IMG/VR virus record: IMGVR_UViG_3300037264_002329
Coordinates: 1-25,247 of that record
Direction: 5' to 3' (one strand)
Source: a virus
DNA: 25,247 bases
A program made the translations under genes and the position numbers. Positions 7,757 to 25,247 of the stretch are shown piece after piece; within the stretch, counting starts at the first letter, position 1, and each line of letters starts with the position of its first letter. The notes below the pieces were generated by a model. It made no database searches and was not told the DNA's origin. It worked only from the letters and a program-made list of their open reading frames with translations.

Positions 7757-7758
7757 TT

Positions 7759-8550: not shown

Positions 8551-8559
8551 ACACTCCTA

Positions 8560-8587: not shown

Positions 8588-8603
8588 CTTAATGTAATAG
8601 CTT

Positions 8604-8663: not shown

Positions 8664-8669
8664 TGAGAT

Positions 8670-9851: not shown

Positions 9852-11138
9852 ATGGCCGCATTTAAAGTAAAACGTGACTTACCACAATTAACACAGGATA
9901 GAATAACCCATCTTGAGGCTATTGATTCCGGGAAACTTACCACAATGGAGTCGGCATATTTGACCGCTCTTGATCCGTATCGGTATAACAGAATTAACCG
10001 GTACTATATCTCCAACACGGACTTTCCGTATGACACTACCGATCTTATTGTTGAAGCTGAAGGACATGATCTTCCTACCGGGGACTCCGGATTTAAACAC
10101 GGAGCGCGTTTCTACGATACCGACAAAGACGGGATGAATGTCTATATCAATGTCGGATCCAGCACGTCTGCATCATGGACGCTTATAGGGCAGATTATGT
10201 CAGCCTCTCCGAGCATTTCAGCTTCAGTTACGCCATCCGTTTCAGTTAGCGCAACTCCGTCTATTAGTGCGTCAGTTACACCAAGCGTCAGCGCGTCAGC
10301 AACAGTTAGCGCAACTCCGTCAGTTTCAGTCAGCGCCACAAAGTCAGCAAGCCCGTCAGTTTCAGTCAGCGCTACACCGTCTATTTCGGAAAGCGCTACA
10401 AAGTCGGCAAGCCCGTCTGTCTCGGTCAGCGCCAGCCCATCCTCTACACGAAGCGGATCAGCATCAACTACGCCATCAGTCTCAGCCAGCGTCAGCCCGT
10501 CGGTTTCAGAAAGTGCTACTCCGTCCATTAGCCCATCCGTCTCAGTCAGCGCAACTCCTTCAGTCTCAGAAAGTGCTACTCCGTCCATTAGCCCATCCGT
10601 CTCAGTCAGCGCTACACCGTCTGTCTCAGTCAGCGCAACTCCTTCAGTCAGTCCGTCAGTAACGCAAAGTGCTACACCGTCAGTTTCATCCAGCGCTACG
10701 CCGTCTGTCTCAGTCAGCGCCACACCATCAGTTAGCCCGAGCGTCTCAGTCTCGGTCAGTCCCTCTGTCTCAGTCAGCGCCACACCATCAGTTAGCCCGA
10801 GCGTCTCAGTCTCGGTCAGTCCCTCTGTCTCAGTCAGCGTTAGCAAGTCGGCCTCGCCCAGCGCGTCTGTATCGCCTTCACATAGTAAATCACCATCTCC
10901 GAGCGTTTCTATCTCGGCCAGCCCCTCGGTCTCAGTCAGCGCTACAAAGTCGGCCAGCCCCTCGGTCTCAGTCTCAGTCAGCCCATCAGTCTCAGCCAGC
11001 GCTACGAAGTCTGCATCTCCGAGCGCAACGAAGTCTGCCAGCCCATCTGTATCAAAGTCAGCATCTCCCAGCGCGTCTGTATCACCCAGCGTATCAGTCA
11101 GCGCTTCGGATTCGCCAAGCCCGTCATTCCCTTTTTAA
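9852..11138 (+). CDS. Probable capsid decoration/head-fibre protein with mucin-like Ser/Thr/Pro repeats
   Basis: This is a 428-aa protein. Residues 1-116 are a normal folded region ending in ARFYDTDKDGMNVYIN and SSTSASWTLIGQ, a beta motif common in phage virion surface and decoration proteins encoded next to the capsid gene. Residues about 117-428 are almost entirely Ser, Val, Pro, Thr and Ala in variants of SVSVSATPS, with occasional Lys, Glu, Arg or Asp. This part is mucin-like: extended, hydrophilic and dense in hydroxyl side chains. It is probably a flexible capsid fibre, and the neighbouring glycosyltransferases suggest it is an O-glycosylation substrate (inference). Only a weak ribosome site, AAGAAAG, precedes the ATG. 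Confidence 0.72.
   Translation: MAAFKVKRDLPQLTQDRITHLEAIDSGKLTTMESAYLTALDPYRYNRINRYYISNTDFPYDTTDLIVEAEGHDLPTGDSGFKHGARFYDTDKDGMNVYINVGSSTSASWTLIGQIMSASPSISASVTPSVSVSATPSISASVTPSVSASATVSATPSVSVSATKSASPSVSVSATPSISESATKSASPSVSVSASPSSTRSGSASTTPSVSASVSPSVSESATPSISPSVSVSATPSVSESATPSISPSVSVSATPSVSVSATPSVSPSVTQSATPSVSSSATPSVSVSATPSVSPSVSVSVSPSVSVSATPSVSPSVSVSVSPSVSVSVSKSASPSASVSPSHSKSPSPSVSISASPSVSVSATKSASPSVSVSVSPSVSASATKSASPSATKSASPSVSKSASPSASVSPSVSVSASDSPSPSFPF
10200..11135 (+). repeat. Ser-rich coding repeat with 60-bp tandem units
   Basis: Degenerate repeats encode S-V-S-V-S-A-T-P-S variants. Two stretches show near-perfect 60-bp (20-residue) periodicity, at about 10501-10620 and 10705-10824. 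Serine is written with AGC and all four TCN codons in a mixed order, so short-range slippage is limited but the longer units are preserved. Related repeats occur at 23522-23998 and from 24927 onward. Confidence 0.85.
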
Positions 11139-11149
11139 TGGAGTAATAT

Positions 11150-11509
11150 ATGCAAGATTCATTTAAAGATCAAAACGGAAACATAACACAAGTACAATTA
11201 GATGCAAACGGGAATATACCGGTCGGTCAGAGTTATAGGAATGTGATGACCGCTACCGCAACGCAAGTAAAATCCGGATCCGGTGTTCTTCACTCCCTTA
11301 CCTTCTCACAGAATGATGCGGCTCCGACAGCAGGGACAATAGATGTGTATGATTCTCTGGATGCTACAGGAAGAAAGATTTTCTCATGGACATTGACGAC
11401 AGCCGTCTTTAATCCATCAACTGTTATTTTAGATGTAGAGTTTGGGGTAGGACTGTATGTAAACTTCACGACTACCGCAGATGTGAACGTCCTCGTTGCC
11501 TTCCGATAG
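11150..11509 (+). CDS. Small beta-sandwich virion protein (probable decoration or fibre-base protein)
   Basis: This 119-aa protein follows the Ser-rich gene by 11 bases, with GGAG seven bases before the ATG. After a short polar head (MQDSFKDQNGNITQVQLDAN) the rest alternates hydrophobic and polar residues in strands: YRNVMTATATQVKSGSGVLH, TAGTIDVYDSL, KIFSWTLTT, VILDVEFGVGLYVNFTTTA, VNVLVAF. This is typical of small all-beta proteins found on phage particles, often trimeric. No enzymatic motif, signal peptide or membrane helix is seen. Association with the capsid or fibre is inferred from context. It is the last structural gene before the sugar cassette. Confidence 0.65.
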   Translation: MQDSFKDQNGNITQVQLDANGNIPVGQSYRNVMTATATQVKSGSGVLHSLTFSQNDAAPTAGTIDVYDSLDATGRKIFSWTLTTAVFNPSTVILDVEFGVGLYVNFTTTADVNVLVAFR

Positions 11510-11541
11510 AAGAATCTCCGCAAGTATGATAAAATTGTATC

Positions 11542-12357
11542 ATGGTCAGCGTTGTTATCCCTTCACGAAATGAACCGTACCTCAAAAAGACTATTCAGGA
11601 TCTTCTCCTCAAGGCTTCCGGACAGATAGAGATAATTGCGGTTTTGGATGGGTACTGGCCGGCACTTCCCGAGTTTGTCAATGATCCGAAGGTCACATAC
11701 ATCCATTTCAGTAATGTCCGGGGGATGAGAAACGCCATCAACTCCGGAGTCTCCATAGCCAAAGGTGAGTTTATCCTCAAGTGTGATGCTCATGTCATGT
11801 TTGAAAAAGGATTTGACACCGTATTGTCCGGAGACTGTCAGGATAATTATGTTGTTGTCCCCCGGCGCTGGGCGTTGGATCCGGAGAAGTGGGAAATAGA
11901 AAAAAGCAATCCGAAGTATCCTATAGATTATATGTTCCTTGATAATGAGTATCACGGATCACCGTGGCATGAAAAGAACAAAGATGAGGATCTCAAAATT
12001 CATGTCATTGATGATCTTATGTCCTCACAGGGATCCTGCTGGTTTATGAGGAAGGACTATTTCCATGAGTTAGAGCTTATGGATGCGTCACTCTTCGGGA
12101 CGTTTGCTTCAGAGTTTCAGGAAGTGGGACTCAAGTGTTGGCTCTCCGGGGGCCGGGTAGTTGTAGACAAAAAAACATGGTACGCCCATTGGCATAAAAC
12201 TGAATCAAGAGGATACAATCTGGATAAGGCAGATGGACAGAAGGCGGCAGATCATGTTGTAACGTGGATGAGTAAGAAGTATACATGGCCGAAACAGATT
12301 CACGATATTAACTGGTTAGTAGAAAAGTTTGCTCCCGTACCTACATGGCCTACGTAA
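11542..12357 (+). CDS. GT-A glycosyltransferase with DAH motif (GT2/GT27-like)
   Basis: This 271-aa protein opens with the GT-A nucleotide-sugar fold, SVVIPSRNEPYLKKTIQDLL, then LDGYWP, GMRNAINSGVSIAKGEFIL and CDAHVMFEKGFD. D82-A83-H84 replaces the usual DXD. A D-x-H motif after a G-x-R-x-A...G element is characteristic of polypeptide GalNAc-transferases (GT27), which start O-glycans on Ser/Thr. A later block, CWLSGGRVVVDKKTWYAH, would be the acceptor side. Substrate cannot be told from sequence; Ser/Thr of the mucin-like proteins is a reasonable hypothesis. It is the first gene of the cassette, has no Shine-Dalgarno, and overlaps the next gene by 13 bases. It is a paralogue of the gene at 18296. 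Confidence 0.82.
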   Translation: MVSVVIPSRNEPYLKKTIQDLLLKASGQIEIIAVLDGYWPALPEFVNDPKVTYIHFSNVRGMRNAINSGVSIAKGEFILKCDAHVMFEKGFDTVLSGDCQDNYVVVPRRWALDPEKWEIEKSNPKYPIDYMFLDNEYHGSPWHEKNKDEDLKIHVIDDLMSSQGSCWFMRKDYFHELELMDASLFGTFASEFQEVGLKCWLSGGRVVVDKKTWYAHWHKTESRGYNLDKADGQKAADHVVTWMSKKYTWPKQIHDINWLVEKFAPVPTWPT

Positions 12358-12902
12358 CGGTAAAAATAGAAAATAGGACTGAATTGGCCCGGTTGTTTAA
12401 TACATTAGGTTTTAAAACCGGCGTTGAGATCGGAGTGGCGTGCGGGAAGTATTCTCAACGGCTCTGTACGGAGATTCCCGGTCTCAAGATCTATTGTGTG
12501 GATCCGTGGAAGCAGTATCCGGAAAATAAAAGATCCGGATCTCAGGAGAGGCTTGACGGACATTATGGGGAAGCGGTGGAGAGACTGAAACCGTATAACA
12601 CCGTCATTATACGCGAGATGAGCATGGATGCGGTAAAGCATTTTGACGATAATTCATTGGATTTTGTGTTTATTGACGGGAATCATAATTACTCGTATGT
12701 GTTGGATGATATAACTGAATGGAGTAAAAAGATCAGAAGCGGAGGAATTGTCTCCGGACATGATTATTACAAATTCAGACGGTCAGGTGTTATAGAAGCG
12801 GTTACTGAATACCTTAAAGACAAACCGGACATCACGTTGAACACTACCACAACTCACCGTCCACCGGGTGAAGCTCGTTGTTTCTGGTGGGTAAAACCAT
12901 GA
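12345..12902 (+). CDS. Class I SAM-dependent methyltransferase
   Basis: This is a 185-aa protein. Motif I, GVEIGVACGKYS (residues 26-37), binds S-adenosylmethionine. FIDGNHNYSYVLDDI (109-123) and GGIVSGHDYY (133-142) are the later motifs of the Methyltransf_24-type family, often found in sugar- and surface-polymer clusters. The D-G-x-H element is characteristic of this group, which includes metal-assisted O-methyltransferases. In this setting O-methylation of a sugar hydroxyl is the likeliest reaction, though the acceptor is unproven. Translation is probably coupled: it begins 13 bases inside the preceding gene and ends with ATGA into the next. Confidence 0.85.
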   Translation: MAYVTVKIENRTELARLFNTLGFKTGVEIGVACGKYSQRLCTEIPGLKIYCVDPWKQYPENKRSGSQERLDGHYGEAVERLKPYNTVIIREMSMDAVKHFDDNSLDFVFIDGNHNYSYVLDDITEWSKKIRSGGIVSGHDYYKFRRSGVIEAVTEYLKDKPDITLNTTTTHRPPGEARCFWWVKP

Positions 12903-13552
12903 GAGATCTTACAGTTATTTACTATACAAGCAACCGGGAAGATATTACGTTTGAATCTCAGATACAGGCTGATCTGTATCAAAAGATCGGTGGTATTTCT
13001 CTTATATCCGTTTCTCAAAAACCGGTACGTTTTGGCAAGAATATCTGTGTTGGGGACGTAGGAGTGTCAGATTATAACATTTACCGGCAGATACAGATCG
13101 GATGTTTAGAAGCAAAGACAACGTATGTCTGTACGGCTGAATCAGATTGTCTTTACCCTCCGACCGGGTACTTTGATTTTAGGCCTCCGGAGGACTGGAC
13201 AGCCGGACACTACACAAACCTCTATATCCTTTGGAAAGGATCACATATCTTCAATCAAAAAGCGTTTTCCCTCTGTGGACTCTTCTCTAATCGTGAGTTT
13301 CTTCTTTCCCGCTTCTCCCGGTCTCTCGGAGTAAAACAATGGAGACCGAACTATAAACCGCAACATCCTCTCTTTCATAAGTGGAAGGAGTGGACACCGT
13401 TTCAGAGTGACATTCCGATCATAAACATCAAGACAGGAGACGGGATGCGGATCAAGTCCGGAGTTAATACGGAAGGTCGCCCTGTAAAAGAACTGCCGTA
13501 TTGGGGATCGGCTGAGGAATTGGAGAAGAAGATATGGAAGATTTATCAATAA
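12899..13552 (+). CDS. E-x-D family glycosyltransferase-like protein, paralogue 1
   Basis: This is a 217-aa protein. ATG 12899 forms a 4-base ATGA overlap with the methyltransferase stop and is preferred over an in-frame ATG 21 bases earlier. The layout is LTVIYYTSN (first strand), LISVSQKP, GKNICVGDVG, YRQIQIGC, then TAESDCLYPP with E81-S82-D83 at the place a GT-A enzyme would bind the sugar nucleotide through metal. The C-terminal part contains IINIKTGDGMRIKSG and ends PYWGSAEELEKKIW. Three other genes (13534, 14265, 19278) share these blocks. A glycosyltransferase role is inferred from the acidic motif and context; the family is not one I can name. Confidence 0.68.
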   Translation: MRDLTVIYYTSNREDITFESQIQADLYQKIGGISLISVSQKPVRFGKNICVGDVGVSDYNIYRQIQIGCLEAKTTYVCTAESDCLYPPTGYFDFRPPEDWTAGHYTNLYILWKGSHIFNQKAFSLCGLFSNREFLLSRFSRSLGVKQWRPNYKPQHPLFHKWKEWTPFQSDIPIINIKTGDGMRIKSGVNTEGRPVKELPYWGSAEELEKKIWKIYQ

Positions 13553-14277
13553 TTTACTATACCTGCAACTATCTGGATGAGAAGAATCCGTACTTTTTAG
13601 GGAATACCCGGAAACAGTTGGAGAAGGCAATCGGGGATGCACCGCTTATAGTAGTATCTCACAAACCCGTACAATGGCCGAGGATGACTGAGAATATCGT
13701 TATGGGAGATATAGGCCGTTCTCATTTAAACATCTATAGACAAATTTTAGCGGGCGCAAAAGCGGCTAAAACAAAGTGGGTAGCGCTGGCAGAAGATGAT
13801 GTTCTCTACTCCGAGCAACACTTTAATTTCCAGTATTTCTGCAAACCGGAGTTTATGGAGAAGGACTACTTTCTTTACGATCAGAACAGAATCTCTATTT
13901 TTACATGGAGCAAGCCTCCTATATTCTCCATGCGATTTAAACGGGTAGTCGTTAATTCCCTTATAGCCAAACGGGATATGCTGGTGGAGGCGATGGAGGA
14001 ACGCTTCCGGAGACTTGAAGAGATTAAAGATAAGTGGCCGGAACGGATGATCCTCAAGTTTTGGGGAGATCCGTCACGGTACGAGGGAAATCTTGGTGTT
14101 ACAATCCGTCTTGCTTATGAATATCATGCGTGGGTTCCGTCTATCGTATTTTCGCATGAGTACGCATACGGGTATGAGTTTAATCAGGGAAAAAGGAAGA
14201 AGGATGGGGATCTCCGGATTGTAGAACTTGCGGATTGGGGACGGGCAGAGGATATTTTAAAACTATGGAAGCCATAA
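13534..14277 (+). CDS. E-x-D family glycosyltransferase-like protein, paralogue 2
   Basis: This 247-aa protein begins MEDLSIIYYTCNYLDEKNPY inside the last 19 bases of the preceding paralogue. It shares IYYTCN, VVSHKP, ENIVMGDIG, IYRQILAG and LAEDDVLYSEQ (E87-D88-D89) with its relatives, followed by a longer C-terminal half with helix AMEERFRRLEEIKDKW and ending ELADWGRAEDILKLW. The ...WG...  ending is shared with the genes on each side. The divergence, despite tandem arrangement, suggests an old duplication with different acceptor or donor choice. The role as a glycosyltransferase is inferred, as for paralogue 1. Confidence 0.66.
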   Translation: MEDLSIIYYTCNYLDEKNPYFLGNTRKQLEKAIGDAPLIVVSHKPVQWPRMTENIVMGDIGRSHLNIYRQILAGAKAAKTKWVALAEDDVLYSEQHFNFQYFCKPEFMEKDYFLYDQNRISIFTWSKPPIFSMRFKRVVVNSLIAKRDMLVEAMEERFRRLEEIKDKWPERMILKFWGDPSRYEGNLGVTIRLAYEYHAWVPSIVFSHEYAYGYEFNQGKRKKDGDLRIVELADWGRAEDILKLWKP

Positions 14278-14885
14278 CAACAGTTATTTACTACGCCAGC
14301 AATCAGGAAGAGGAACCGTTTGCTCAAAAGATCCGGGACAGATTGTGGAAAAGTAAAGGCGGATTGCCTCTGGTCTCGGTTACTCAGAAACCGTTGGACT
14401 TTGGGGATAACATTTGTGTCGGAGACATAGGGCCATCAGAAGAAAATGTTTGGAGACAACTCCTCATAGGTTGTCATAGAGCAAAGACTCCCTATATTCT
14501 TTCAGCCGAGGCAGATACGCTGTACCCTCCGGAGTATTTTACGTATAAACCGGAGAGTGTAAAGGATCGGTACTGGTTTGAGGGGGTATGGATTCTTTTT
14601 CACAATAAGGATGAGTATTATTCAAAAGGACGTTCTGATTGCGCGCACATGGCCGGACGGGAGTACCTTATAGACCTCCTTGAGAGAGGATTGAGAGAGA
14701 AGCGGAAGTCAGTCTATAAAGGGACAAAACATCCTTTACGGGTTGATCTTCAGAATCCGGTTGTAAGTATAAAGACCGGGAAAGGGATGCGTTCTTCAAC
14801 GCAGACATGGCCGATCGGGGAACTGTCCCTGCCGTTATGGGGATCAGCATATAATCTCAGAAGGGAGTTTTTCCATGAACTATAG
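14265..14885 (+). CDS. E-x-D family glycosyltransferase-like protein, paralogue 3
   Basis: This is a 206-aa protein. ATG 14265 is chosen because MEAITTVIYYASNQ then aligns with the first strand of the relatives; an earlier in-frame ATG would add ten residues lying deep in the upstream gene. The shared blocks are VSVTQKP, GDNICVGDIG, VWRQLLIGC and SAEADTLYPPEYF (E82-A83-D84). It is closest to paralogue 1, including VVSIKTGKGMR and LPLWGSA near the end. It overlaps the upstream gene by 13 bases and the next by 11. Three such genes in a row suggest stepwise transfer of successive sugars or a duplicated enzyme set. Confidence 0.66.
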   Translation: MEAITTVIYYASNQEEEPFAQKIRDRLWKSKGGLPLVSVTQKPLDFGDNICVGDIGPSEENVWRQLLIGCHRAKTPYILSAEADTLYPPEYFTYKPESVKDRYWFEGVWILFHNKDEYYSKGRSDCAHMAGREYLIDLLERGLREKRKSVYKGTKHPLRVDLQNPVVSIKTGKGMRSSTQTWPIGELSLPLWGSAYNLRREFFHEL

Positions 14886-15711
14886 CGTCTTTCACGGCAG
14901 AGGCGGATGCGGGATCGTCCGGGGGATTCAGGTTGCTGAGTTTTTAGGAGCAAAAGACAATCCGACATCCGGATATGAAAATGATACCTGCATTTACGTC
15001 AAGGTCATACCTCCGAAAGATCATCCGAAACATTCTTATTTTGATGTCGTGGATGCGGCGTACAGCATTGAGTGGCTCAAGGAGAATCCGGACATTGGCG
15101 TTATTGCCATTTCAGACGTTGCAAAGGACTATCTTGAGAAGGAATTGGGAAGGAAGGATATTATCCGGATCCCTCATCATCATTGTAACTATGAACGGAT
15201 CATCCGTCCGGATCGTCCGGTACAGGTCGTAGGGATCATAGGAAGTCAGAACTCGTTTCAGTACCCTATTGAGGAGATTAGGAAGGCGTTGGAAGGTATG
15301 GGACTAAAACTCCTGTACAATCAGAGTTACTGGAAGCATTTTAATGATGTGCCGACAAGGGAAGGAATAGACGGCCGGCATAAAGTCATAAACTTCTACA
15401 ACCGGATTGACATTCAGATCGTGTGGAGGGTAAAGCCGTGGTCTCCCCGGTATGACTGGTTCAGGAATCCTCTGAAGTTGGAGAACGCCGGATCATTCAG
15501 GATACCGACTGTCGCGTATCCGGAGCCGAGTTACGTCCGGGAGTGGGGCGGTAGTTTCATCGCTGTTGATACGATTCAAAAACTGCTGGCAGAGGTTGAG
15601 CTTCTGAAGAACAATCCGGAGTATTACCATGATATGTCAATGAAAGCGTTAATACGCGCTGATGATTATCACATGGACGAAGTAAAACAATTATATTTAC
15701 AATTACCATGA
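14875..15711 (+). CDS. GT-B-like glycosyltransferase (putative)
   Basis: This 278-aa protein begins MNYSVFHGRGGCGIVRGIQV. The N-terminal half shows Rossmann-type alternation with IGVIAISDVAKDYLEKEL, then RIPHHHCNYER. The second half has VVGIIGSQNSFQYPIEEI and ends with KLENAGSFRIPTVAYPEPSY (about residues 201-220) and LLAEVELLKNNPEYYHDMS. A second-domain motif of the form K-x-x-N-A-G-S-x-x-x-P-T-V-A followed by a long C-terminal helix is usual in GT-B enzymes of the GT4 type. The usual E-x7-E pair is not evident, so activity or donor is uncertain. GGGAG with a short spacer precedes the start, inside the previous gene. Confidence 0.6.
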   Translation: MNYSVFHGRGGCGIVRGIQVAEFLGAKDNPTSGYENDTCIYVKVIPPKDHPKHSYFDVVDAAYSIEWLKENPDIGVIAISDVAKDYLEKELGRKDIIRIPHHHCNYERIIRPDRPVQVVGIIGSQNSFQYPIEEIRKALEGMGLKLLYNQSYWKHFNDVPTREGIDGRHKVINFYNRIDIQIVWRVKPWSPRYDWFRNPLKLENAGSFRIPTVAYPEPSYVREWGGSFIAVDTIQKLLAEVELLKNNPEYYHDMSMKALIRADDYHMDEVKQLYLQLP

Positions 15712-16505
15712 CACAAACATCCATCATCGTTGTCGTAAAGGACTGTCTTGAGTATACGAAGAAATGTTTGGATTCTCTTGCGTTCTATACGAAAGATTTT
15801 GAGTTGATTATCGTGGATAACGGAAGCAACGAAGAAACGAAAGAATATCTCCGGAATCTTGATTTGTTTGAAGGGTATAGGATCGTGTGGAATAAAGAAA
15901 ATATGGGATGTCCTTACGCATGGGATCAGGGGATCAAACTGGCAACGTGCGACTTTATAGCAATCGTCAGCAACGATTGTGTCGTTACTCCGAACTGGCT
16001 TACCTATCTGATGAAATGCTTTGCCGACAATCCCCGGTGCGGAGTTGCGTCTCCGACAACTTCTTTTTGCGGAGGGAGACGGTGTGATAAGAAGATTAAA
16101 GAGGCCCGGTATACCATGACACAACAGGACATGAATGATTATGCAAAGACGCTGAAGTTTGGGTACATTGATTGTGAGACCTTCGGATTTGCGTTTCTTA
16201 CTCATAAGAAGGTCATTGAGAAGATCGGAGTGTTTGACTATAAACGCTATGGGTTAGGAACGTGGGAGGAACGGGATTTTAACTGGCGGGCAAAGCAATC
16301 CGGATTCCGGACGTATTGGGTAAAACACGCATACGTTCATCACTACGGACACGCGATATTTGAAAAAGGCAATATCAGCGCAAACGCTGATGAATTACGG
16401 ACAAAAAACCGGTTGGTATTTCTCCATAGGGTTGCAGACAGAAGCCCTCTGTTTATAGACAATGATGTGATTGTAAAAACAGATAGAACGGAAAGGATTG
16501 CATGA
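15708..16505 (+). CDS. GT2 family glycosyltransferase
   Basis: This 265-aa protein is a standard GT-A/GT2 enzyme, translationally coupled by ATGA. It opens TSIIVVVKDCLEYTKKCLDS, then LIIVDNGSNEETKEYL (residues 33-48), NKENMGCPYAWDQGIKLA, and IVSNDCVVTPNW, where S-N-D (88-90) sits at the DXD position. The general base region is YGLGTWEERDFNWRAKQSG. These features match rhamnosyl- or hexosyl-transferases that add sugars to surface glycans. The C-terminal extension with HHYGHAIFEKG is typical of GT2 proteins in O-antigen-type clusters. Donor and acceptor cannot be determined. It would extend, rather than start, a glycan if it acts with the DAH-motif enzymes (inference). Confidence 0.88.
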   Translation: MTQTSIIVVVKDCLEYTKKCLDSLAFYTKDFELIIVDNGSNEETKEYLRNLDLFEGYRIVWNKENMGCPYAWDQGIKLATCDFIAIVSNDCVVTPNWLTYLMKCFADNPRCGVASPTTSFCGGRRCDKKIKEARYTMTQQDMNDYAKTLKFGYIDCETFGFAFLTHKKVIEKIGVFDYKRYGLGTWEERDFNWRAKQSGFRTYWVKHAYVHHYGHAIFEKGNISANADELRTKNRLVFLHRVADRSPLFIDNDVIVKTDRTERIA

Positions 16506-17119
16506 ATCAAAAGCAACTGTGGGAAAAACTGGCGCAGGAGAACTCCCGGTACTATATCAACTCCGACTTCGGCCGGAAGATTACGGAGGATGAGTTTCGG
16601 GAGAGCGGGAAACAGGATTTTATTAAATACATCTTTGACGATCCGTTGTTTAAGGCTGGTACTATTGTGGAAATAGGGTGTGGAACAGGAAGAATGACGG
16701 AGTTTATGGGATGGGAGTTTGACAAAGTGTACGCTCTGGATATTTCAAAGGAAATGATCCGTCAGGCAAGGGAACGGGTACAATCCGAGAAGATTGAGTT
16801 TTTAGAAACAGACGGAGAGACGATTCCTCTTACTCCGTATTCCGCAGACTACGTATTCTCCTATCTTGTCTTTCAGCACATGAAAACCCGGGAGATGGTA
16901 GAAAAGAATTTTATGGAGGCATACAGAGTTCTTAAACCTAACGGGATATTTAAAGTCCGTCTCCGGACGGATGAGATAAAGGATTTGGAAAGCTGGTGGG
17001 CCGGTGTTTCTTATGATGAACAATCCATCCGGGATCTCTGTGGGCGCATCGGATTTACTGTGATAAAATTAAAGTTTGTAAAGGAGTACGGCGTATGGGT
17101 GTGGATGAAAAAAGAATAA
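16502..17119 (+). CDS. SAM-dependent methyltransferase (Methyltransf_11 type)
   Basis: This 205-aa protein has motif I VEIGCGTGRMTEF (residues 56-68), the acidic ribose-binding residue in VYALDISKEM (76-85), motif II in YVFSYLVFQHM, and RVLKPNGIFKVRL as the post-III strand. All SAM-binding elements appear intact. The N-terminal 50 residues (LWEKLAQENSRYYINSD) form a helical cap of the kind seen in sugar or small-molecule methyltransferases. It starts by ATGA overlap and ends 25 bases inside the next gene. It is probably one of four methyltransferases that decorate the same glycan; substrate is unknown. Confidence 0.87.
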   Translation: MNQKQLWEKLAQENSRYYINSDFGRKITEDEFRESGKQDFIKYIFDDPLFKAGTIVEIGCGTGRMTEFMGWEFDKVYALDISKEMIRQARERVQSEKIEFLETDGETIPLTPYSADYVFSYLVFQHMKTREMVEKNFMEAYRVLKPNGIFKVRLRTDEIKDLESWWAGVSYDEQSIRDLCGRIGFTVIKLKFVKEYGVWVWMKKE

Positions 17120-17760: not shown

Positions 17761-18299
17761 AAACAATTCTTACAGAAATTAACGGGTACGGGACATTTTA
17801 TCGGGGACAGGAAACATTGAAGAAGGGGTATCCGTGGCTTACGTTTGGCGCTATCCTTATTTTAGAACGCTTACTCCGGCATCCCTTTGATGTGCTGGAA
17901 TTGGGAAGCGGGGGATCCACGATATTCTTTTCTCAGAGAGCGCGATCGGTTGTTTCTCTTGAGACTGATTCTCTGTGGTATAAGCGGGTAAAGAAACGGT
18001 TGAAAAACAGATCAAACACAACGATACTGTATAAACCGTTTCCGGAAGCGATGGAATACATTCGGTCTTTCCCGGATAATTCCTTCAACATGGTGCTGTC
18101 TGATCTTGGTAAAACATACGCGGAACGGTTGGAATCAACAATCGTATCCGTCCCGAAATTGAAGAAAGGTGGTTGGCTGATTATAGACAATTACCTTTGT
18201 TATCCCCTCTCTATGTTTGACTATACCGGTTTTGATGTCTATACCTTTGACAACTTTCAGTATTCCGGAAAGGGAACGAAGATTTGTAAAAAACTATGA
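17757..18299 (+). CDS. Short SAM-dependent methyltransferase-like protein
   Basis: This 180-aa protein is coupled by ATGA to the gene before and after. Motif I is FDVLELGSGGSTIFFSQRAR (residues 44-63), followed by VVSLETDSLWYKRVKKRL with an acidic residue at the ribose position, then FNMVLSDLGKTYAERL and KGGWLIIDNY. The G-S-G-G-S-T form of motif I with SLE-T/H-D downstream is typical of a group of small methyltransferases near glycosyltransferases. The IIDNY end of the core corresponds to the strand after motif III. It lacks a substrate-binding extension, so the acceptor site may be built with a partner. Confidence 0.78.
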   Translation: MKTILTEINGYGTFYRGQETLKKGYPWLTFGAILILERLLRHPFDVLELGSGGSTIFFSQRARSVVSLETDSLWYKRVKKRLKNRSNTTILYKPFPEAMEYIRSFPDNSFNMVLSDLGKTYAERLESTIVSVPKLKKGGWLIIDNYLCYPLSMFDYTGFDVYTFDNFQYSGKGTKICKKL

Positions 18300-19246
18300 A
18301 AGACGTATCCGTTTGTATTGCCGCGCGTAATGAAGAGTTCTTAGCACGGACAGTAGAGGGAGTGCTAAAAAACAAACGGGCCGATACAGAGGTCATTGTG
18401 GTTTGTGACGGGAACTGGCCGAAGCCTCCGATTGTAGATGATCCGGATGTTATCCTCATTTATCACTCAAAGTCCATCGGTCAGCGTCAGGCAGTCAATG
18501 AGGCAGTAAAACTCTCAACGGCAAAGTACGTAATGAAACTGGACGCGCATTGTATCCTTGATGAAGGGTTTGACGTAAAACTCATAGCTGATTGTGAATA
18601 TACATGGACAGTAGTACCAAGAATGTATAACTTACACGGATTTGACTGGGTATGTAAAGCAGACGGAGAACGGTTATATCAGCGTCCTTCTGATAAGGCG
18701 ATATGCCCGAAATGCGGAAAGAAAATGGAGAGAGAAATCATCTGGAAACCCCGATGGCATAAACGGTCAGACTTCATGCGGTTTGATAGCGACCTCCACT
18801 TCCAGTATTGGGGAGGATTAGGGGATCGTCCAGAGTCAAAAGGGGACTTGGCAGAAACTATGTCCTTCGTTGGTGCGTGTTTCTTCATGTATAGGAAGCG
18901 GTATTGGGAATTGGACGGGTCAGAGGAGTCTTGGGGTTCGTGGGGACAACAAGGAACAGAATGGGCGTGTAAAACTTGGTTATCCGGTGGGAAAGTCATG
19001 GTGAATAAAAAGACATGGTTTGCTCATCTCTTTCGGACACAGGGAGGGGATTTTGGATTTCCCTATCCACAATCAGGAAAACAGGTAGAACATGCACGGA
19101 AGATGTCAAAAGAGTTCTTTTTAGAAGGGAAGTGGTCAAAAGCGATCCATCCTCTTTCATGGCTTATTCAGAAGTTTGCTCCCGTACCAGGGTGGGAGAA
19201 CCATCCGTTTAACAAAATTGAACCTAATTTACCACTTGCAACGTAA
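18296..19246 (+). CDS. GT-A glycosyltransferase with DAH motif and zinc-ribbon-like insertion
   Basis: This 316-aa paralogue of the first cassette gene reads VSVCIAARNEEFLARTVEGV, CDGNWPKPP, GQRQAVNEAVKLSTAKYVM and KLDAHCILDEGFD (D83-A84-H85). LDAHC is also a signature of animal polypeptide GalNAc-transferases. The insertion at about residues 117-160 has C120 and the pair C137-P-K-C140-G, resembling a zinc ribbon whose first knuckle has lost a cysteine. The acceptor-side block is GTEWACKTWLSGGKVMVNKK, and the end FAPVPGW matches the relative's FAPVPTW. Together these two genes bracket the first operon of the cassette. Start by ATGA overlap. Peptide Ser/Thr as acceptor is inference. Confidence 0.82.
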   Translation: MKDVSVCIAARNEEFLARTVEGVLKNKRADTEVIVVCDGNWPKPPIVDDPDVILIYHSKSIGQRQAVNEAVKLSTAKYVMKLDAHCILDEGFDVKLIADCEYTWTVVPRMYNLHGFDWVCKADGERLYQRPSDKAICPKCGKKMEREIIWKPRWHKRSDFMRFDSDLHFQYWGGLGDRPESKGDLAETMSFVGACFFMYRKRYWELDGSEESWGSWGQQGTEWACKTWLSGGKVMVNKKTWFAHLFRTQGGDFGFPYPQSGKQVEHARKMSKEFFLEGKWSKAIHPLSWLIQKFAPVPGWENHPFNKIEPNLPLAT

Positions 19247-19265
19247 GAAAAAAATGTAGTATTAT
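19236..19265 (+). promoter_or_regulatory. Promoter-like site for the second sugar operon
   Basis: TTGCAA (19236-19241), an 18-base A-rich spacer and TATTAT (19260-19265) overlap the end of the previous gene and fill the 31-base gap, the only clear break in the sugar cassette. ATG 19278 follows with no Shine-Dalgarno. The -35 box lies inside the final codons of the upstream gene. Confidence 0.45.
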
Positions 19266-19277
19266 AAAATAAGTAGT

Positions 19278-19979
19278 ATGACAAAAGGTATCATCTATTA
19301 CACTGATAGTATCCTAGACGATAAAATAGCTGTTCCTTGCAGAAAACAGATATTAAAGGCAAATCTCCCCATAGTTTCCACTTCTCTTAAACCATTAGAC
19401 TTTGGAAAAAATATCGTATTGAATTTAGAACGAGGATGGGAGGCATATTTTAGACAAATTTTAACTGCATTGGAAAATTCGGAAAGCGACATTATATTTT
19501 TTTGTGAGCATGATTGGCTTTACCATACATCCCATTTTGATTTTACCCCTCCATTGAAAGATGTCTATTATTACAACGACAACTGGTGGAGGGTATGTTA
19601 TTCTGATGGATTGGCAGTTAATTACGAAACGCATTTAGTTCCAGCGATCTGTGCGTATAAAGAGATTTTATTGGAACACTATAGAAAAACAGTTGAGGTA
19701 TTAGAGAAAAATAATTTTAATAGTGAATTAGTTTACTCCATAGGGTTTGAGCCTGGAACGCATACAAGGAAAGAAAAGGTCGTAAGTTATAAGTCAGAAG
19801 GATGGATGTCGGAGTTTCCAATTATAGACATACGGCATATGACAAACGCAACAAGAAGCAAGTGGAAACAGTCAGATTTCCGAAGCCAGAGGAATTGTAA
19901 AAACTGGAAGGAAACGGATTATATAGAAGGGTGGGGATTGGTAAAAAACAATTTTGATGCGATTTTGGAAAATGTATGA
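19278..19979 (+). CDS. E-x-D family glycosyltransferase-like protein, paralogue 4
   Basis: This 233-aa protein begins MTKGIIYYTDSILDDKIAVP and keeps the family blocks STSLKPLDFGKNIV, YFRQILTAL and FFCEHDWLYHTSHFDFTPP (E77-H78-D79). The C-terminal half has FEPGTHTRKEKVVSYKSEGW and PIIDIRHMTNATRSKWKQSD, which differs from paralogues 1-3. Codon use is more AT-rich and CCGG is absent, unlike the first three, so this copy probably came with the following sugar genes as a separate block. It has no ribosome site, and its stop overlaps the aminotransferase start by ATGA. Role inferred as sugar transfer. Confidence 0.66.
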   Translation: MTKGIIYYTDSILDDKIAVPCRKQILKANLPIVSTSLKPLDFGKNIVLNLERGWEAYFRQILTALENSESDIIFFCEHDWLYHTSHFDFTPPLKDVYYYNDNWWRVCYSDGLAVNYETHLVPAICAYKEILLEHYRKTVEVLEKNNFNSELVYSIGFEPGTHTRKEKVVSYKSEGWMSEFPIIDIRHMTNATRSKWKQSDFRSQRNCKNWKETDYIEGWGLVKNNFDAILENV

Positions 19980-21094
19980 AAGACAATATACCAGTATTAT
20001 GTCCTACATTTGATGAACGAACAAAAAAAGAATTATTGGATGTCTTAGATAGTGGATGGGTTGGGTTTGGAAGCAAGACGAAAGAATTTGAACGGCAATT
20101 TGCCAATTATATTGGTGCTAAGTATTGTGTTGCTACAAACTCAGGAACGTCAGCTCTTGATCTTTGCCTCAAGGCGTATGGAATAAAAGGAGGAGAACTT
20201 ATTACAACCCCCATGACGTTCGTTTCTGACGCTATAGTGGGAGAATGGAATGGGATGGATGTGACATTTGCTGATATTGATGAAAAGACACTGTGTCTTG
20301 ATCCTGAAACTATTGTTATCACAAAGGATACAAAAGCAATCATTACGGTTGACTCTCATGGTCGGTTAGCAGATATTGACGGGATAAGAATAAAAATAGA
20401 GGAATATAATGCGGAACATGATGAAAAAGTAAACCCGCTTGTCATTGAAGATGCGGCACACGCCATGTATACACAAGGAGCAGGAAAAAAGGCCGACATA
20501 ACGATATGGAGTTTTCAGGCAGTAAAATCCATGCCTATTTTTGACGGGGGTGCAGTTACGACAAACAGTGATGATATATACAAACGTATCCGTGATCTTA
20601 CATGGCTCGGTATTGAAAAATCAACATATGAACGGGTAGAGGATAAACGGTATTCATGGGATTATGACATTAAACAGGCAGACGGCATTAAGGCATATAT
20701 GACTGATGTCCAAGCTATTATAGGATTAGGGCAATTACGGAGACTTCCAGAATTATTAGGAAAACGGAGGGCAATTCAGGCTTATTATAATGATGCTTTC
20801 CGGCATAAAAAACAGATAAAGCGTCCGAAGTGGTCTCAAACGTGCCAATACTATACCATTCAATGTGAACGGAGGGATGAATTATCTAATTATCTTGCTG
20901 GAAAAGGAATAACGACATCTGTCCATTTCAAGCCTCTTAATATGATGACATACTGGAAAAAAGCGGAAAAACGCCCATTACCAGTCAACAATAGAATATG
21001 GACAAGTTTATTGACTTTACCATGCCATGATGCCCTTACATGGGAAGAATGCGAGTATATTATAAAATGCGTCAAAGAATTTTATGAACAATAA
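19976..21094 (+). CDS. DegT/DnrJ/EryC1/StrS family sugar aminotransferase
   Basis: This 372-aa PLP enzyme adds an amino group to a keto-sugar nucleotide. The family pattern is clear: PVLCPTFDERTKKELLDVLD, GWVGFGSKTKEFERQFANYI, ATNSGTSALDLCLKAYGI, then TTPMTF, VDSHGR, IEDAAHAMYTQ (PLP-ring Asp159) and WSFQAVKSMPIFDGGAV with K184 as the Schiff-base lysine. HFKPLNMMTYWK and PCHDALTWEECEYII close the domain. Length is typical, so it looks intact. Its product would be an amino-sugar nucleotide such as a 3- or 4-amino-deoxyhexose donor. It starts by ATGA and overlaps the reductase by 11 bases, indicating one pathway. Confidence 0.92.
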   Translation: MKDNIPVLCPTFDERTKKELLDVLDSGWVGFGSKTKEFERQFANYIGAKYCVATNSGTSALDLCLKAYGIKGGELITTPMTFVSDAIVGEWNGMDVTFADIDEKTLCLDPETIVITKDTKAIITVDSHGRLADIDGIRIKIEEYNAEHDEKVNPLVIEDAAHAMYTQGAGKKADITIWSFQAVKSMPIFDGGAVTTNSDDIYKRIRDLTWLGIEKSTYERVEDKRYSWDYDIKQADGIKAYMTDVQAIIGLGQLRRLPELLGKRRAIQAYYNDAFRHKKQIKRPKWSQTCQYYTIQCERRDELSNYLAGKGITTSVHFKPLNMMTYWKKAEKRPLPVNNRIWTSLLTLPCHDALTWEECEYIIKCVKEFYEQ

Positions 21095-21701
21095 AATACT
21101 TCTTACTGGTGGGTCTGGATTATTAGGAAAAGAACTCCAAAAGTATATTAATTGTTATGCTCCTTCTCATAAGGAATTGGATATAAAAAAACCAATTCAA
21201 GAAGATATCAATGTTCATGTCGTCATTCACTGTGCGGCGTATACGGATGTTGCAAAAGCAGAAAAAGAAAAAGAAGAATGTTTTAAGACTAATGTTATAG
21301 GAACAAAAAATCTCGTAAACGCATTTCCTAACGCCTATTTTGTCTACATTTCGTCTGAGTATGTAAAAAATTCCGTCAATTTTTATTCTCATACAAAAAA
21401 AATGGGGGAAGATATTGTACTGAAAAAACCTTATGGAGATATCCTTATTATCCGTACGCTTTTCAAACCCCGTCCGTTTCCCTATGAGTACGCTTTTTTT
21501 GACCAATGGACGACTGGAGATTATGTTGATGTCATTGCTCCCATAATCGTTACCCATATTCTAAACCACGAACGAGGAATTATAGATGTCGGAACTGGAC
21601 GAAAGACAATGTTTCAACTCGCCCATCAGACGAAACCAAACATAAAAGGAATATCTGTTGATGATGTAAAAGACGTACTATTACCAAAGGATTATCAATG
21701 A
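21084..21701 (+). CDS. RmlD-like NAD(P)-dependent sugar-nucleotide reductase (short)
   Basis: This is a 205-aa Rossmann protein of the extended SDR type. GGSGLLG (residues 9-15) is the cofactor-binding G-x-x-G-x-x-G; HCAAYTDVAKAE and VYISSEYVKN follow as in dTDP-4-dehydrorhamnose reductases; YSHTK (101-105) gives the catalytic Y-x3-K. RmlD proteins are usually near 290 residues, so much of the C-terminal substrate domain is shortened, with only GIIDVGTGRKTMFQLAH recognisable. The enzyme would reduce or epimerise a keto-sugar nucleotide beside the aminotransferase. It is coupled to both neighbours by overlaps of 11 and 4 bases. Confidence 0.83.
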   Translation: MNNKILLTGGSGLLGKELQKYINCYAPSHKELDIKKPIQEDINVHVVIHCAAYTDVAKAEKEKEECFKTNVIGTKNLVNAFPNAYFVYISSEYVKNSVNFYSHTKKMGEDIVLKKPYGDILIIRTLFKPRPFPYEYAFFDQWTTGDYVDVIAPIIVTHILNHERGIIDVGTGRKTMFQLAHQTKPNIKGISVDDVKDVLLPKDYQ

Positions 21702-22468
21702 AAATTACGTTGATAGGAAAAGGCTGGGTTTCTCAAGCTATGCAAAAACTCTTTCCTGATGCCTATGTTTATTCTAACGGAAAAAGCGGGGAAGTAGGAA
21801 CGAAAGAGGAAGCGAATAAAGGGGATGTAGCGTTTATCTGTGTCCCTTCTCCTTGTCTATCTGAAAAAGAATTAGATTGTTCAGCAGTAGAGGAAGCGGT
21901 AGCATGGTGTGAATGCCCTCTTTTAGTTATCCGTTCTACAGTAAACCCAGGGACAACCGATTATCTTGCGAAAAAATACCACAAACATATTGTAATGCAA
22001 CCTGAATATTTGGGTGAAACACCTTCTCATCCCATGTTAGACCCTAAAACCCGTCCATTCCTTATTTTAGGAGGGAAAAAAGAGGATACACGAAAACTCA
22101 TTGAGGTTTATCAAGAAGTTTATAATGCCAATATAAGCATTCGTCAGGTTAGCGCTCTTGAAGCGGAAGTGATAAAACTGTCAGAGAACAGGGCGATAGT
22201 ATTCAAGGTAGCAGAGTGCCAAGAATTATATGACGTGTGTGAACGAGCCGGAATTGACTACTATACGATCCGTGATGCAGTCTATGGTGATGATCCGAGG
22301 TTTAATCTTTGGTGGACGTTTGTCTATCCTGAAAAACGTGGGTTCAATTCAAAGTGTATTCCAAAAGACGTCTATGCGTGGTGTGCGTGGGCTGAATCAC
22401 TTGGGTATCATCCTCAAATTACCCGGTCCATACTTATAAAAAATAAGTATTGGATAGAAAATAAATAA
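21698..22468 (+). CDS. Truncated UDP-glucose/GDP-mannose dehydrogenase-like protein
   Basis: This 256-aa protein holds the NAD-binding and central domains of the UDP-sugar 6-dehydrogenase family but not the C-terminal UDP-binding domain (full proteins have about 400-450 residues). The start IGKGWVSQAM replaces the third glycine of GxGxxG with Ser. IRSTVNPGTTDYL matches the STVxPGTT motif, MQPEYLGE matches PEFLxE, K170 sits in the conserved FK...E helix, and GFNSKCIPKD (C220) carries the nucleophilic cysteine of the usual GGSCxPKD. Catalytic residues are thus kept. It may work without the third domain, on an unusual substrate, or as a different oxidoreductase. It ends the cassette. Confidence 0.8.
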   Translation: MKITLIGKGWVSQAMQKLFPDAYVYSNGKSGEVGTKEEANKGDVAFICVPSPCLSEKELDCSAVEEAVAWCECPLLVIRSTVNPGTTDYLAKKYHKHIVMQPEYLGETPSHPMLDPKTRPFLILGGKKEDTRKLIEVYQEVYNANISIRQVSALEAEVIKLSENRAIVFKVAECQELYDVCERAGIDYYTIRDAVYGDDPRFNLWWTFVYPEKRGFNSKCIPKDVYAWCAWAESLGYHPQITRSILIKNKYWIENK

Positions 22469-22477
22469 CTTCTTTAA

Positions 22478-22507
22478 TTGCCTTCCGATAGTTTTTCTTC
22501 GTATTCT
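22478..22507 (+). promoter_or_regulatory. Promoter-like site before the fibre genes
   Basis: TTGCCT (22478-22483), 18 bases, and TATTCT (22502-22507) lie in the 47-base gap between the dehydrogenase and the next gene. The ATG comes eight bases after the -10 without a Shine-Dalgarno. The 14-mer TTGCCTTCCGATAG at its left end also occurs at 11496-11509, at the other end of the cassette. Confidence 0.42.
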
Positions 22508-22515
22508 GTAGGTAT

Positions 22516-22698: not shown

Positions 22699-22699
22699 T

Positions 22700-24409
22700 A
22701 TGGCTACAGTTGCAGTTCTCGTTGGTGCTGGAGGAGGAGGAGGAGGGTTTAACTCTGGAGGTGGAGGTGGTGCAGGAGGATTACCCTATGACGCTGCGTT
22801 TGCTGTTTCTCCTGGAAATATTACCGTCACTGTCGGTGATGGTGGAGCTGGTGCTGTTGATTTAACCCATAAAGGAAGTAATGGTCAAGATTCTGTATTT
22901 TCTACAATAACTGCAACAGGTGGTGGAGGAGGAGGAAGCAATACTGATTCCAGTGCTGGGGCTGTTGGAGGATCGGGCGGAGGAGGAGAAGGAAACTACG
23001 CTGCTGGAGCAGGAGGAGGAAGAACAGATAGTCCAGTTCAGGGAAACATAGGAGGGAATGGAATAGATACGGGAGATGGATATGGAGGAGGAGGAGGCGG
23101 TGGTGCTGGAGCAGCAGGAGGAAATGCTTCAGGAAATAATGGTGGTGCTGGGGGAGTTGGTCTTGCATATGATATCGTTTCAGAAGGGAATGATGTTTAT
23201 TACGCAGGTGGTGGTGGAGGAGGTTCATATATCACTCCAGGTTCAGGAGGAAATGGTGGTGGTGGAGCGGGTGGAGCTTATCCTACATATACTCCTGTTG
23301 CTGGTACATCAAATACAGGTGGAGGTGGAGGAGGAAGCACTGGTGGAGCAGGGCCAGCGTATGTAGGATATAAAGGTGGTTCAGGAATCGTTATTATTCG
23401 GTATCTTACTTCAGATTTTGGTACTTGTACTGGTGGAACAAAGACAACAGATGGAGATTATACTGTTCATAAATTTGTTTTAGCTGATAGTGGAACGGAT
23501 TTTGTTTGTGTAGGAGCAGGATCAGCAAGCGCATCACCCTCTGTCTCGGTCAGCGCCACAAAGTCGGCCAGTCCCTCTGTCTCAGTCTCTGCCACACCCA
23601 GCGCATCTCCCTCAGTCAGCGCTTCTGCCACACCCAGCGCCTCTGCCTCGGTCAGCGTGTCGGCCACACCCAGCGCCTCCGTCTCGGCCACTCCGTCAGC
23701 TAGTCCCTCTGTCTCAGTCAGCGCCACACCCAGCGCCTCTGCCTCGGTCAGCGTGTCGGCCACACCCAGCGCCTCCGTCTCGGCCACTCCGTCAGCTAGT
23801 CCCTCTGTCTCAATCAGCGCCACACCCAGCGCTTCCCCTTCGGTCAGCGTTTCGGCCACACCGAGCGTCTCCGTCTCAGCCACGCCAAGCATTTCTGAAT
23901 CAGCCACACCCTCTGCTAGTCCGAGTATCAGTCCTTCGGTCTCAGTCAGCGCCACACCGTCAGTTTCGGTTTCCCTTTCCCCCTCTCCGTCTCCAAGTTT
24001 GGGATATACCGGATATACAAGAGGAGATGAGGTAGCGCTTCCGGGAAATGATACGGATCTGGAAACAAACTATTCTGCACAGGATGTGATAGATGTAGCA
24101 ACAAAGGATAATGTCCGTGTAGATCAGACAGCAACAAAACAATACATGATTCATCAATACAAGAATTTTGTTGGAGATAACACAAATTGTCAGTTGGAAT
24201 GGGAAGGACAGACAACGCTTGCTCCCACTACTTTAACGGTGTATTTACAGATCTATAACCGCACTACGTCTGCATGGGTAACGGTAGATAGCGATAATAC
24301 TTCTCCTGCGGATACGGATTTTGGATTACTTGCGGATGTAGTGGATTTAACGGATTACAAAGATGCTCGGAATGTAATTTCATGCAGGGTGTATCAGGAG
24401 GCATTATAG
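22700..24409 (+). CDS. Adhesin/tail-fibre-like protein: glycine-rich domain, Ser-rich linker, C-terminal beta domain
   Basis: This is a 569-aa protein with three parts. Residues 1-235 are a glycine-rich adhesin domain with Gly runs separated by strands (VAVLVGAGGGGGG, NITVTVGDGGAGA, SGIVIIRYL); such domains in phage fibre adhesins form polyglycine sheets that display receptor-binding loops. Residues 236-274 form a short connector with cysteines 243 and 270. Residues 275-433 are mucin-like repeats related to those of the gene at 9852. Residues 434-569 are a beta-rich domain with LEWEGQTTLAPTTLTVYLQI and ending DYKDARNVISCRVYQEAL. It is probably a virion surface or host-contact protein; the linker may be glycosylated. 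Confidence 0.78.
   Translation: MATVAVLVGAGGGGGGFNSGGGGGAGGLPYDAAFAVSPGNITVTVGDGGAGAVDLTHKGSNGQDSVFSTITATGGGGGGSNTDSSAGAVGGSGGGGEGNYAAGAGGGRTDSPVQGNIGGNGIDTGDGYGGGGGGGAGAAGGNASGNNGGAGGVGLAYDIVSEGNDVYYAGGGGGGSYITPGSGGNGGGGAGGAYPTYTPVAGTSNTGGGGGGSTGGAGPAYVGYKGGSGIVIIRYLTSDFGTCTGGTKTTDGDYTVHKFVLADSGTDFVCVGAGSASASPSVSVSATKSASPSVSVSATPSASPSVSASATPSASASVSVSATPSASVSATPSASPSVSVSATPSASASVSVSATPSASVSATPSASPSVSISATPSASPSVSVSATPSVSVSATPSISESATPSASPSISPSVSVSATPSVSVSLSPSPSPSLGYTGYTRGDEVALPGNDTDLETNYSAQDVIDVATKDNVRVDQTATKQYMIHQYKNFVGDNTNCQLEWEGQTTLAPTTLTVYLQIYNRTTSAWVTVDSDNTSPADTDFGLLADVVDLTDYKDARNVISCRVYQEAL
23522..23998 (+). repeat. Ser-rich coding repeat with 96-bp units
   Basis: Coding repeats of S-x-S-A-T-P type. 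Units at 23641-23736 and 23737-23832 are 96 bp long and differ at one position that I could see. They are homologous to the 96-bp units near 25025, and related to the repeats at 10200-11135, giving three separated homologous tracts in the same orientation. Confidence 0.85.
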
Positions 24410-24410
24410 T

Positions 24411-25247
24411 ATGGCACAAATTGTAGATAGCTATAGTGAAAACAATGCTGATGTTACTGCTTATTTGCTCAATCAAACTCCTTATTATATTAAATGTGGT
24501 CAATCATTTACTGGAGATGGTGGAACATTAAATAGTTGTAAATGGTTAATGGCAAAAGGTGGAAGTGCAACAGGAAATGTCTATGCAAAAATTTATGCTC
24601 ATTCAGGAACTTTTGGAACAAATAGTATTCCTACAGGTTCTGCTTTAGCAATTTCTGATGCCGTTCTTGCTTCTTCCGTTTCTTCTGGTGGTGGATTGGT
24701 AACTTTTACTTTTTCTGGTGCAAATAAAATTACATTAACGAACACAACAAAATATGTTGTAACGGTTGAATATGACAATGGAACTGAAGTTAATTATCTC
24801 GGAGTTGGAGGAGATAGTACCAATTCAACTCATGGGGGTAACTTATCTATTTGGTCTTATGAAGGGAGTAACTGGCAGTATGCTTCTCCTGATGATTTTA
24901 GTTTTTATGTCTATAAAGATGACGTGGGAAGCGCAAGTGCATCTCCTTCAGCTACTCTCTCAGCCAGCCCCTCGGTCTCAGTCAGCGCCACACCTAGCGT
25001 TTCAGTCTCTCTTAGCCCGTCCGCCAGTCCTTCGGTCTCAGTCAGCGCCACACCCAGCGCCTCTGCCTCAGTCAGTGTCTCTGCCACACCCAGCGTGTCC
25101 GTCTCGGCTACGCCGTCCATCAGTCCTTCGGTCTCAGTCAGCGCCACACCCAGCGCCTCTGCCTCAGTCAGTGTCTCTGCCACACCCAGCGTGTCCGTCT
25201 CGGCTACGCCGTCCATCAGTCCTTCGGTCTCAGTCAGCGCCACACCC
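24411..25247 (+). CDS. Fibre/adhesin-like protein with Ser-rich repeats (cut by window end)
   Basis: The frame is open from ATG 24411 to the last base, 279 codons with no stop. CAGGAGG precedes the ATG by about nine bases, one base after the previous stop. Residues 1-171 form a beta-sandwich-like domain (YYIKCGQSFTGDGGTLNSCK, NVYAKIYAHSGTFGTN, GLVTFTFSGANKITLTNTTK, YVVTVEYDNGT, DFSFYVYKDDVG), resembling carbohydrate-binding modules found in phage fibres and surface proteins. From residue 173 the sequence is mucin-like (SVSVSATPS). Domain order is folded head then repeats, as in the gene at 9852. What follows the repeats is outside the window. Role in host contact is inferred. Confidence 0.75.
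   Translation, partial: MAQIVDSYSENNADVTAYLLNQTPYYIKCGQSFTGDGGTLNSCKWLMAKGGSATGNVYAKIYAHSGTFGTNSIPTGSALAISDAVLASSVSSGGGLVTFTFSGANKITLTNTTKYVVTVEYDNGTEVNYLGVGGDSTNSTHGGNLSIWSYEGSNWQYASPDDFSFYVYKDDVGSASASPSATLSASPSVSVSATPSVSVSLSPSASPSVSVSATPSASASVSVSATPSVSVSATPSISPSVSVSATPSASASVSVSATPSVSVSATPSISPSVSVSATP
24927..25247 (+). repeat. Ser-rich coding repeat with exact 96-bp tandem copies
   Basis: Bases 25025-25120 and 25121-25216 are identical 96-bp copies, and a third begins at 25217 and runs to the window end. Each encodes 32 residues of S-V-S-A-T-P type. The exact identity indicates recent duplication. Confidence 0.9.

Follow-up and report, generated by a model that had tools for sequence, protein, structure and literature searches.

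The 25.2-kb IMG/VR fragment analyzed here as a whole (IMGVR_UViG_3300037264_002329; the window) very probably encodes a cytoplasmic, mucin-like O-glycosylation system by which a phage modifies its own virion proteins. The observations behind this reading are long Ser/Thr-rich tracts (S/T tracts), their linkage to glycosyltransferase genes, the fold and the motif of these enzymes, the joint absence of tracts and enzymes in some relatives, and the absence of membrane proteins from the cassette. We infer the acceptor, the donor sugar, the order of steps, the location of the tract proteins in the virion, a Patescibacteria host, and the purpose. It is the position of an S/T-rich protein beside an enzyme resembling the GT27 family, whose members start mucin sugar chains in animals, that suggests a mucin-like sugar coat on the particles.

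Gene content of the window

The genes are arranged in the order terminase, SU10-like portal, scaffold-like gene, major capsid protein (MCP), the S/T-tract protein STR1, a small protein, 15 sugar genes, and two further S/T-tract proteins (Table 1). A preliminary description had counted fourteen sugar genes; all enzymes it listed are present, but its own list sums to 15 (two DAH-type GT-A enzymes, one GT2, one GT-B-like protein, four ExD proteins, four methyltransferases, an aminotransferase, a reductase, and a dehydrogenase-like protein). The gene overlaps, the coordinates, and the position after the MCP (phrog_267) had been described correctly, and the sugar genes are overlapping or closely spaced throughout 11542–22468.

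Table 1. Features of the window with their positions and the evidence for each assignment.
Feature	Position	Strand	Evidence
Terminase small subunit	3369..3857	+	phrog_51 E 1.9e-11
Terminase large subunit	3832..5193	+	phrog_2 E 1.8e-22
Portal, SU10-like	5233..6951	+	Pfam SU10_portal E 3.6e-6, below its cut-off
Major capsid protein (MCP)	8670..9779	+	phrog_267 E 1.3e-19
STR1	9852..11138	+	~115-aa N-terminal anchor, ~310-aa S/P/V/A/T tract, C-terminal tag SPSPSFPF
Small protein, possible decoration protein	11150..11509	+	homologues in a few relatives; Pfam: none
DAH1, GT27-like GT-A glycosyltransferase (D82-x-H84, H216)	11542..12357	+	Pfam GT2 E 8.7e-16
Methyltransf_24 methyltransferase	12345..12902	+	Pfam E 5e-19
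ExD1, GT-A-like protein family	12878..13552	+	family alignment
ExD2, GT-A fold	13534..14277	+	model pLDDT 93.6; best GT-A match Z 12.5
ExD3, GT-A-like protein family	14235..14885	+	family alignment
Putative GT-B-like glycosyltransferase (GTB)	14875..15711	+	conserved family; Pfam and PDB searches: zero matches
GT2 glycosyltransferase, usual type	15708..16505	+	Pfam E 2.7e-23
Methyltransf_11 methyltransferase	16502..17119	+	Pfam E 1e-22
Methyltransf_11 methyltransferase	17095..17760	+	Pfam E 3.3e-13
Methyltransf_24-like methyltransferase	17757..18299	+	Pfam E 3.5e-7
DAH2, second GT27-like glycosyltransferase	18296..19246	+	Pfam GT2 E 3.6e-11; own clade in tree
ExD4	19278..19979	+	translations of relatives
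DegT/DnrJ/EryC1/StrS sugar aminotransferase	19976..21094	+	Pfam E 6e-81
RmlD-like short NDP-sugar reductase	21084..21701	+	Pfam E 6e-19
Short UDPG/GDP-Man dehydrogenase-like, without C-terminal domain	21698..22468	+	Pfam central domain E 2.7e-13, NAD domain E 1.4e-9
Gly-rich domain, S/T tract, C-terminal domain; presumed virion acceptor	22700..24409	+	Pfam Gly_rich_2 E 5.4e-23
N-terminal domain, then S/T tract; ORF cut by window end; presumed virion acceptor	24411..25247	+	tract

DAH2 and ExD4 are encoded separately in the window (18296–19979) but as a single polypeptide in three relatives (L020, L102, and L163), and a DAH domain is fused to a GT-B-like protein in another (L120; read by eye from translations). 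These fusions tie ExD4 and the GT-B-like gene to the same pathway as DAH. Structure matches assign the ExD family to the GT-A fold, with no closer assignment, and a scan of viral relatives anchored on the GT2 gene at 15708 found none. The methyltransferases together with the DegT gene make a methylated amino-sugar glycan a plausible product. No cassette protein reaches the hydropathy threshold for a transmembrane segment, which disfavors a lipid-linked or Gtr-type surface modification.

The anchor of STR1 is common to STR1 proteins (alignment of 23; mean column identity 50%) and matched nothing in Pfam and PDB searches. An aromatic-proline C-terminal tag (SPSPSFPF, SFPDV, and similar) follows the degenerate tract in 54 of 62 distinct STR1 sequences, with aromatic residues making up 16% of the last eight residues vs. 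0.4% of the tract. Tract serines are encoded by all six codons, TCN and AGY, which indicates that it is the amino-acid sequence of the tract that is maintained and that DNA slippage alone does not account for it. STR1, for which no signal peptide is evident by eye, is presumed to be a head-associated acceptor, and for the products of 22700 and 24411 it is the gene position that points to a role in the virion. The 24411 product has a homologue (46%) with an 889-residue tract, encoded 3′ of a DAH cassette on a WWE3 contig (L163).

At least 156 MCP relatives were found in IMG/VR. Among cultured phages (INPHARED), the MCP had one partial match (31%) and DAH1 a single weak match, to a fecal phage, and the searches with STR1 and ExD2 gave none. 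Near the start of the window, positions 1721–1948 encode a small protein consisting nearly completely of NGYGDGYGNGDG-type repeats, and positions 600–782 a hydrophilic KGG-type protein of 60 aa whose match to LEA_5 is weak (E 3.1e-5) and does not reach the cut-off.

Fold and motif of the DAH enzymes

Pfam assigns DAH1 and DAH2 to GT2 only. When a profile of 50 DAH sequences was compared with the PDB, the best match was 1xhb (E 6.8e-15, positions 3–257 of 287), and animal polypeptide GalNAc-transferases (ppGalNAcTs, GT27) ranked above every bacterial GT2. With the C-terminal half alone, ppGalNAcTs were the only glycosyltransferases matched (E 6e-5 to 0.2); hemagglutinin HA2 entries that also appeared in that search (E about 0.01 and weaker) were rejected as chance matches to the profile tail. 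The AlphaFold2 model of DAH1 (pLDDT 93.8) gave the same picture, as the best 50 Foldseek matches listed were all GT27, and in VIA-align the GT27 structures occupied ranks 1–29 (Z 24.5–28.4; rmsd 2.5–3.1 over 253–269 residues), followed by a bacterial glycosyltransferase as best non-GT27 entry (Z 19.7).

The residues D82, H84, and H216 are invariant in all 50 DAH sequences, and D82-x-H84 and H216 of DAH1 align with the DAH and VGH of 1xhb (ppGalNAcT-1), which contain the Mn ligands of ppGalNAcTs. E191 is found in at least 90% of the sequences and is profile-aligned to the Glu of the GT27 WGGEN motif, whose W-G-G residues are not conserved in DAH. According to a survey of GT-A enzymes, only GT27 and GT60 show a DxD-to-DxH change; both families are Ser/Thr polypeptide O-glycosyltransferases, and the C-terminal His of ppGalNAcTs binds metal (PMC7185993). 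In light of this survey, the GT27-like profile and fold and the DxH with its C-terminal His make DAH a candidate, by fold and motif, that most likely works like a polypeptide O-glycosyltransferase. The preliminary description had not recognized DxH as a signature of such enzymes. Identity to ppGalNAcTs is about 17–20%, and DAH1 (271 aa in all) has no ricin-B lectin domain and no N-terminal transmembrane segment by hydropathy. Because DAH lacks a lectin domain and a membrane anchor and its activity is a prediction, we do not file it as a member of GT27, and its donor and acceptor could differ from those of that family.

Linkage of DAH genes and S/T tracts, and the proposed pathway

The three ORFs with long S/T/P/A/V tracts (9852, 22700, and 24411) that had been noted before were found, and such tracts exceed chance: by the criterion that windows with an S+T content of at least 40% cover at least 80 aa, a tract ORF is present in 87 of the 94 viral contigs sharing the MCP vs. 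1 of 73 control loci from D6E-like phages (1.07 Mb), and this lone control ORF is an R-rich artefact. DAH was found in none of the 73 controls. In all 79 contigs that extend at least 1 kb past the MCP, an S/T protein is the next gene (78 pass the threshold, with a median gap of 77 bp; in L126 the tract is shorter, at 40 aa), and DAH lies within 2.5 kb of the S/T ORF in 64 of the 66 contigs that extend at least 0.9 kb beyond that ORF (median gap 58 bp). The linkage is nearly complete. Among DAH loci without an MCP relative, 31 of 41 have an S/T ORF, and most of the remaining ten end close to the DAH genes. DAH relatives are encoded at 472 loci, and they occur in hundreds of uncultured phages. 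The layout is common to a large group of phages, which the preliminary description had not mentioned. The pair is also present in L288, a siphovirus that is unrelated and encodes a tape measure. This siphovirus has three DAH genes, and its positions 5357–8914 (minus strand) encode a Laminin_G_3 lectin-like domain joined to an S/T tract.

The MCP relatives that lack DAH also lack the tract (5/5: the G397 prophage, G700, and L290–L292), a near natural knock-out with a small n, as these are five contigs or prophages counted singly rather than on a tree. In G700, the STR1 anchor is kept after the MCP and runs on into ordinary sequence that has no tract. An S/T insert of ~70 aa in a tail-region protein of a DAH-containing phage is missing from the 41–59% identical homologue in G397; a scan with the G397 protein gave zero matches. 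In a 64-kb contig with DAH at its edge (G702), no same-strand tract was seen in the parts read. The proposal of the preliminary description that S/T-rich virion proteins are O-glycosylated by the phage cassette is therefore strongly supported by the predicted GT27-like fold, the motif, the linkage, the joint absence, and the occurrence of the pair in unrelated phages.

In the pathway that we propose, the substrates would be extended S/T/P tracts held in virion proteins by folded anchors, namely STR1, encoded right behind the capsid gene, and the two other tract proteins, whose genes precede those for tail or neck. The first sugar would be placed on Ser/Thr by DAH1 and DAH2, and the ExD, GT-B-like, and GT2 enzymes would lengthen the glycan, with the DegT, RmlD-like, and UGDH-like enzymes producing a modified NDP-sugar and the methyltransferases O-methylating the glycan. 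The product may be a brush of glycans, stiff and hydrated, that ends in a short aromatic-proline tip and probably would serve adsorption to, or mimicry of, the host surface. The preliminary description had also considered immune or mucus binding, but no animal link was found, and the evidence points to environmental Patescibacteria phages.

The tract proteins might be glycosylated and nevertheless be lysogeny or cell-surface proteins (morons) instead of virion components, as similar S/T proteins are encoded 3′ of DAH cassettes on Patescibacteria contigs (L163 and L187). The direct succession of MCP and STR1, the latter with no signal peptide apparent on inspection by eye, makes this unlikely, as does the fact that the tracts stop just before neck-like, tail-region, and lysis genes and that an S/T insert sits inside a tail-region protein. 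We regard it as very unlikely that the cassette alters host surface glycans, as in serotype conversion or superinfection exclusion, with the S/T proteins being separate virion spacers. Phage glycosyltransferases often modify the host surface, and DAH1 weakly matches the GtrB-like phrog_841 (E 0.0029), but, unlike in GtrABC O-antigen conversion, there is neither a GtrA flippase nor a membrane glycosyltransferase (hydropathy of all cassette proteins), fold and motif of DAH are GT27-like and not GtrB-like, and the cassette has a late structural position and is tightly paired with S/T tracts, unrelated phages included.

Phage DNA glucosylation is known, and the methyltransferase MT24a matches phrog_2675, which is annotated as DNA methyltransferase (E 2e-21), so that the tracts could be unglycosylated linkers and the glycosyltransferases and methyltransferases could act on DNA bases or small molecules. 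However, the Methyltransf_24 class is common in small-molecule and sugar O-methylation, no base-synthesis gene was seen in the cassette, and DAH has the fold and the DxH motif of polypeptide glycosyltransferases, which renders such a function extremely improbable. Glycosylation of the phage's own virion proteins is thus the reading that we prefer.

Host, cellular cassettes, and relation to known systems

Where relatives extend further, the S/T genes give way to a gene with weak tail similarity (phrog_10775) and to genes for two large proteins and an endolysin, and no tape measure was seen in the parts of these MCP relatives that were read; phages with this MCP are probably short-tailed. Their hosts are probably ultra-small Patescibacteria. 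Among 84,980 species genomes, DAH was found at 36 loci, 28 of them in MAGs named Patescibacteria, and in a random sample it was detected in 5 of 379 Patescibacteria vs. one weak match in 293 Planctomycetota (seed genomes excluded in both cases). A related prophage lies inside a 149-kb Patescibacteria contig. Binning errors are a possible cause of Patescibacteria assignments of MAGs. In a quick tree, phage and genome DAH genes are interleaved, with at least 23 switches on well-supported branches.

The cassette is thus also located in Patescibacteria genomes, which the preliminary description had not recognized. TatC is encoded within 10 kb of the cassette at 9 of the 36 genome loci (L164, L165, L168, L172, L173, L174, L177, L187, and, weakly, L157; five confirmed by Pfam, the rest by a custom profile), and in five loci small proteins with a twin-arginine signal of the RR-x-FLK type are encoded 3′ of TatC. 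By our own estimate, which assumes that a genome of ~1 Mb has one TatC, chance would account for about 2%, and the excess suggests that Patescibacteria cells glycosylate proteins in the cytoplasm and export them through Tat. At about two thirds of the 36 loci, DAH occurs without an S/T tract by the criterion used, and cells may therefore have acceptors of other make-up. On L113, a viral contig that carries DAH genes, the 122-aa protein encoded at position 8376 has a Tat-like N-terminus (SRRKFLK). We tentatively raise the possibility, to which we give somewhat less than even chances, that mucin-type O-glycosylation, usually regarded as eukaryotic, also exists in a prokaryotic form which is exchanged between Patescibacteria and their phages, with cells glycosylating surface proteins in the cytoplasm by GT27-like enzymes before Tat export, and with phages using the same cassette for a mucin-like coat that mimics the host surface.

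Virion glycosylation as such is known, as the mycobacteriophages Che8, Corndog, and Myrna encode glycosyltransferases that modify their own capsid and tail proteins (Freeman et al., 2023, as presented in PMC12363180). Here, too, the glycosyltransferases are encoded by the phage, and their genes are linked to those for virion structure, with the MCP on one side and tail-region genes on the other. Relative to that account, the present system probably stands apart by its unusual enzyme, which is GT27-like and has the DxH motif, by a cassette of 15 genes, and by S/T/P tracts that would be dedicated substrates. With the GT60 polypeptide GlcNAc-transferases, DAH shares the DxH motif and, as proposed, the Ser/Thr acceptor (PMC7185993), but DAH1 and DAH2 have no match to the GT60 Pfam model at E up to 0.1, a search in which hmmscan filters may hide remote matches. 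Animal and Toxoplasma ppGalNAcTs (CAZy GT27) resemble DAH in the whole-chain fold, the DxH with C-terminal His, and, as proposed, the S/T/P-rich type of acceptor, whereas DAH has neither their membrane anchor nor their ricin-B lectin domain and would act in the bacterial cytoplasm. In Gram-positive bacteria, GtfA/GtfB O-glycosylate the serine-rich tracts of serine-rich repeat adhesins in the cytoplasm, and export is by SecA2/SecY2. The proposed system is similar in that S-rich tracts would be O-glycosylated in the cytoplasm by enzymes whose genes lie beside that of the substrate, but the initiating glycosyltransferase is a different one, the product would be part of a virion and not a cell-wall adhesin, and it is Tat genes rather than an accessory Sec system that lie near the Patescibacteria cassettes.

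In the literature searched, we found no GT27-like enzyme described from phages or Patescibacteria, and if our interpretation is true, this would be, within that literature, the first case in which GT27-like polypeptide O-glycosylation is linked to phage particles. The compact and soluble DAH1, together with its adjacent repeat substrate, makes mucin-type glycosylation testable in E. coli. The system also offers a starting point for work on the cell surface of Patescibacteria and on the phages of these bacteria, about which little is known, and the DAH enzymes bear on the origin of GT27.
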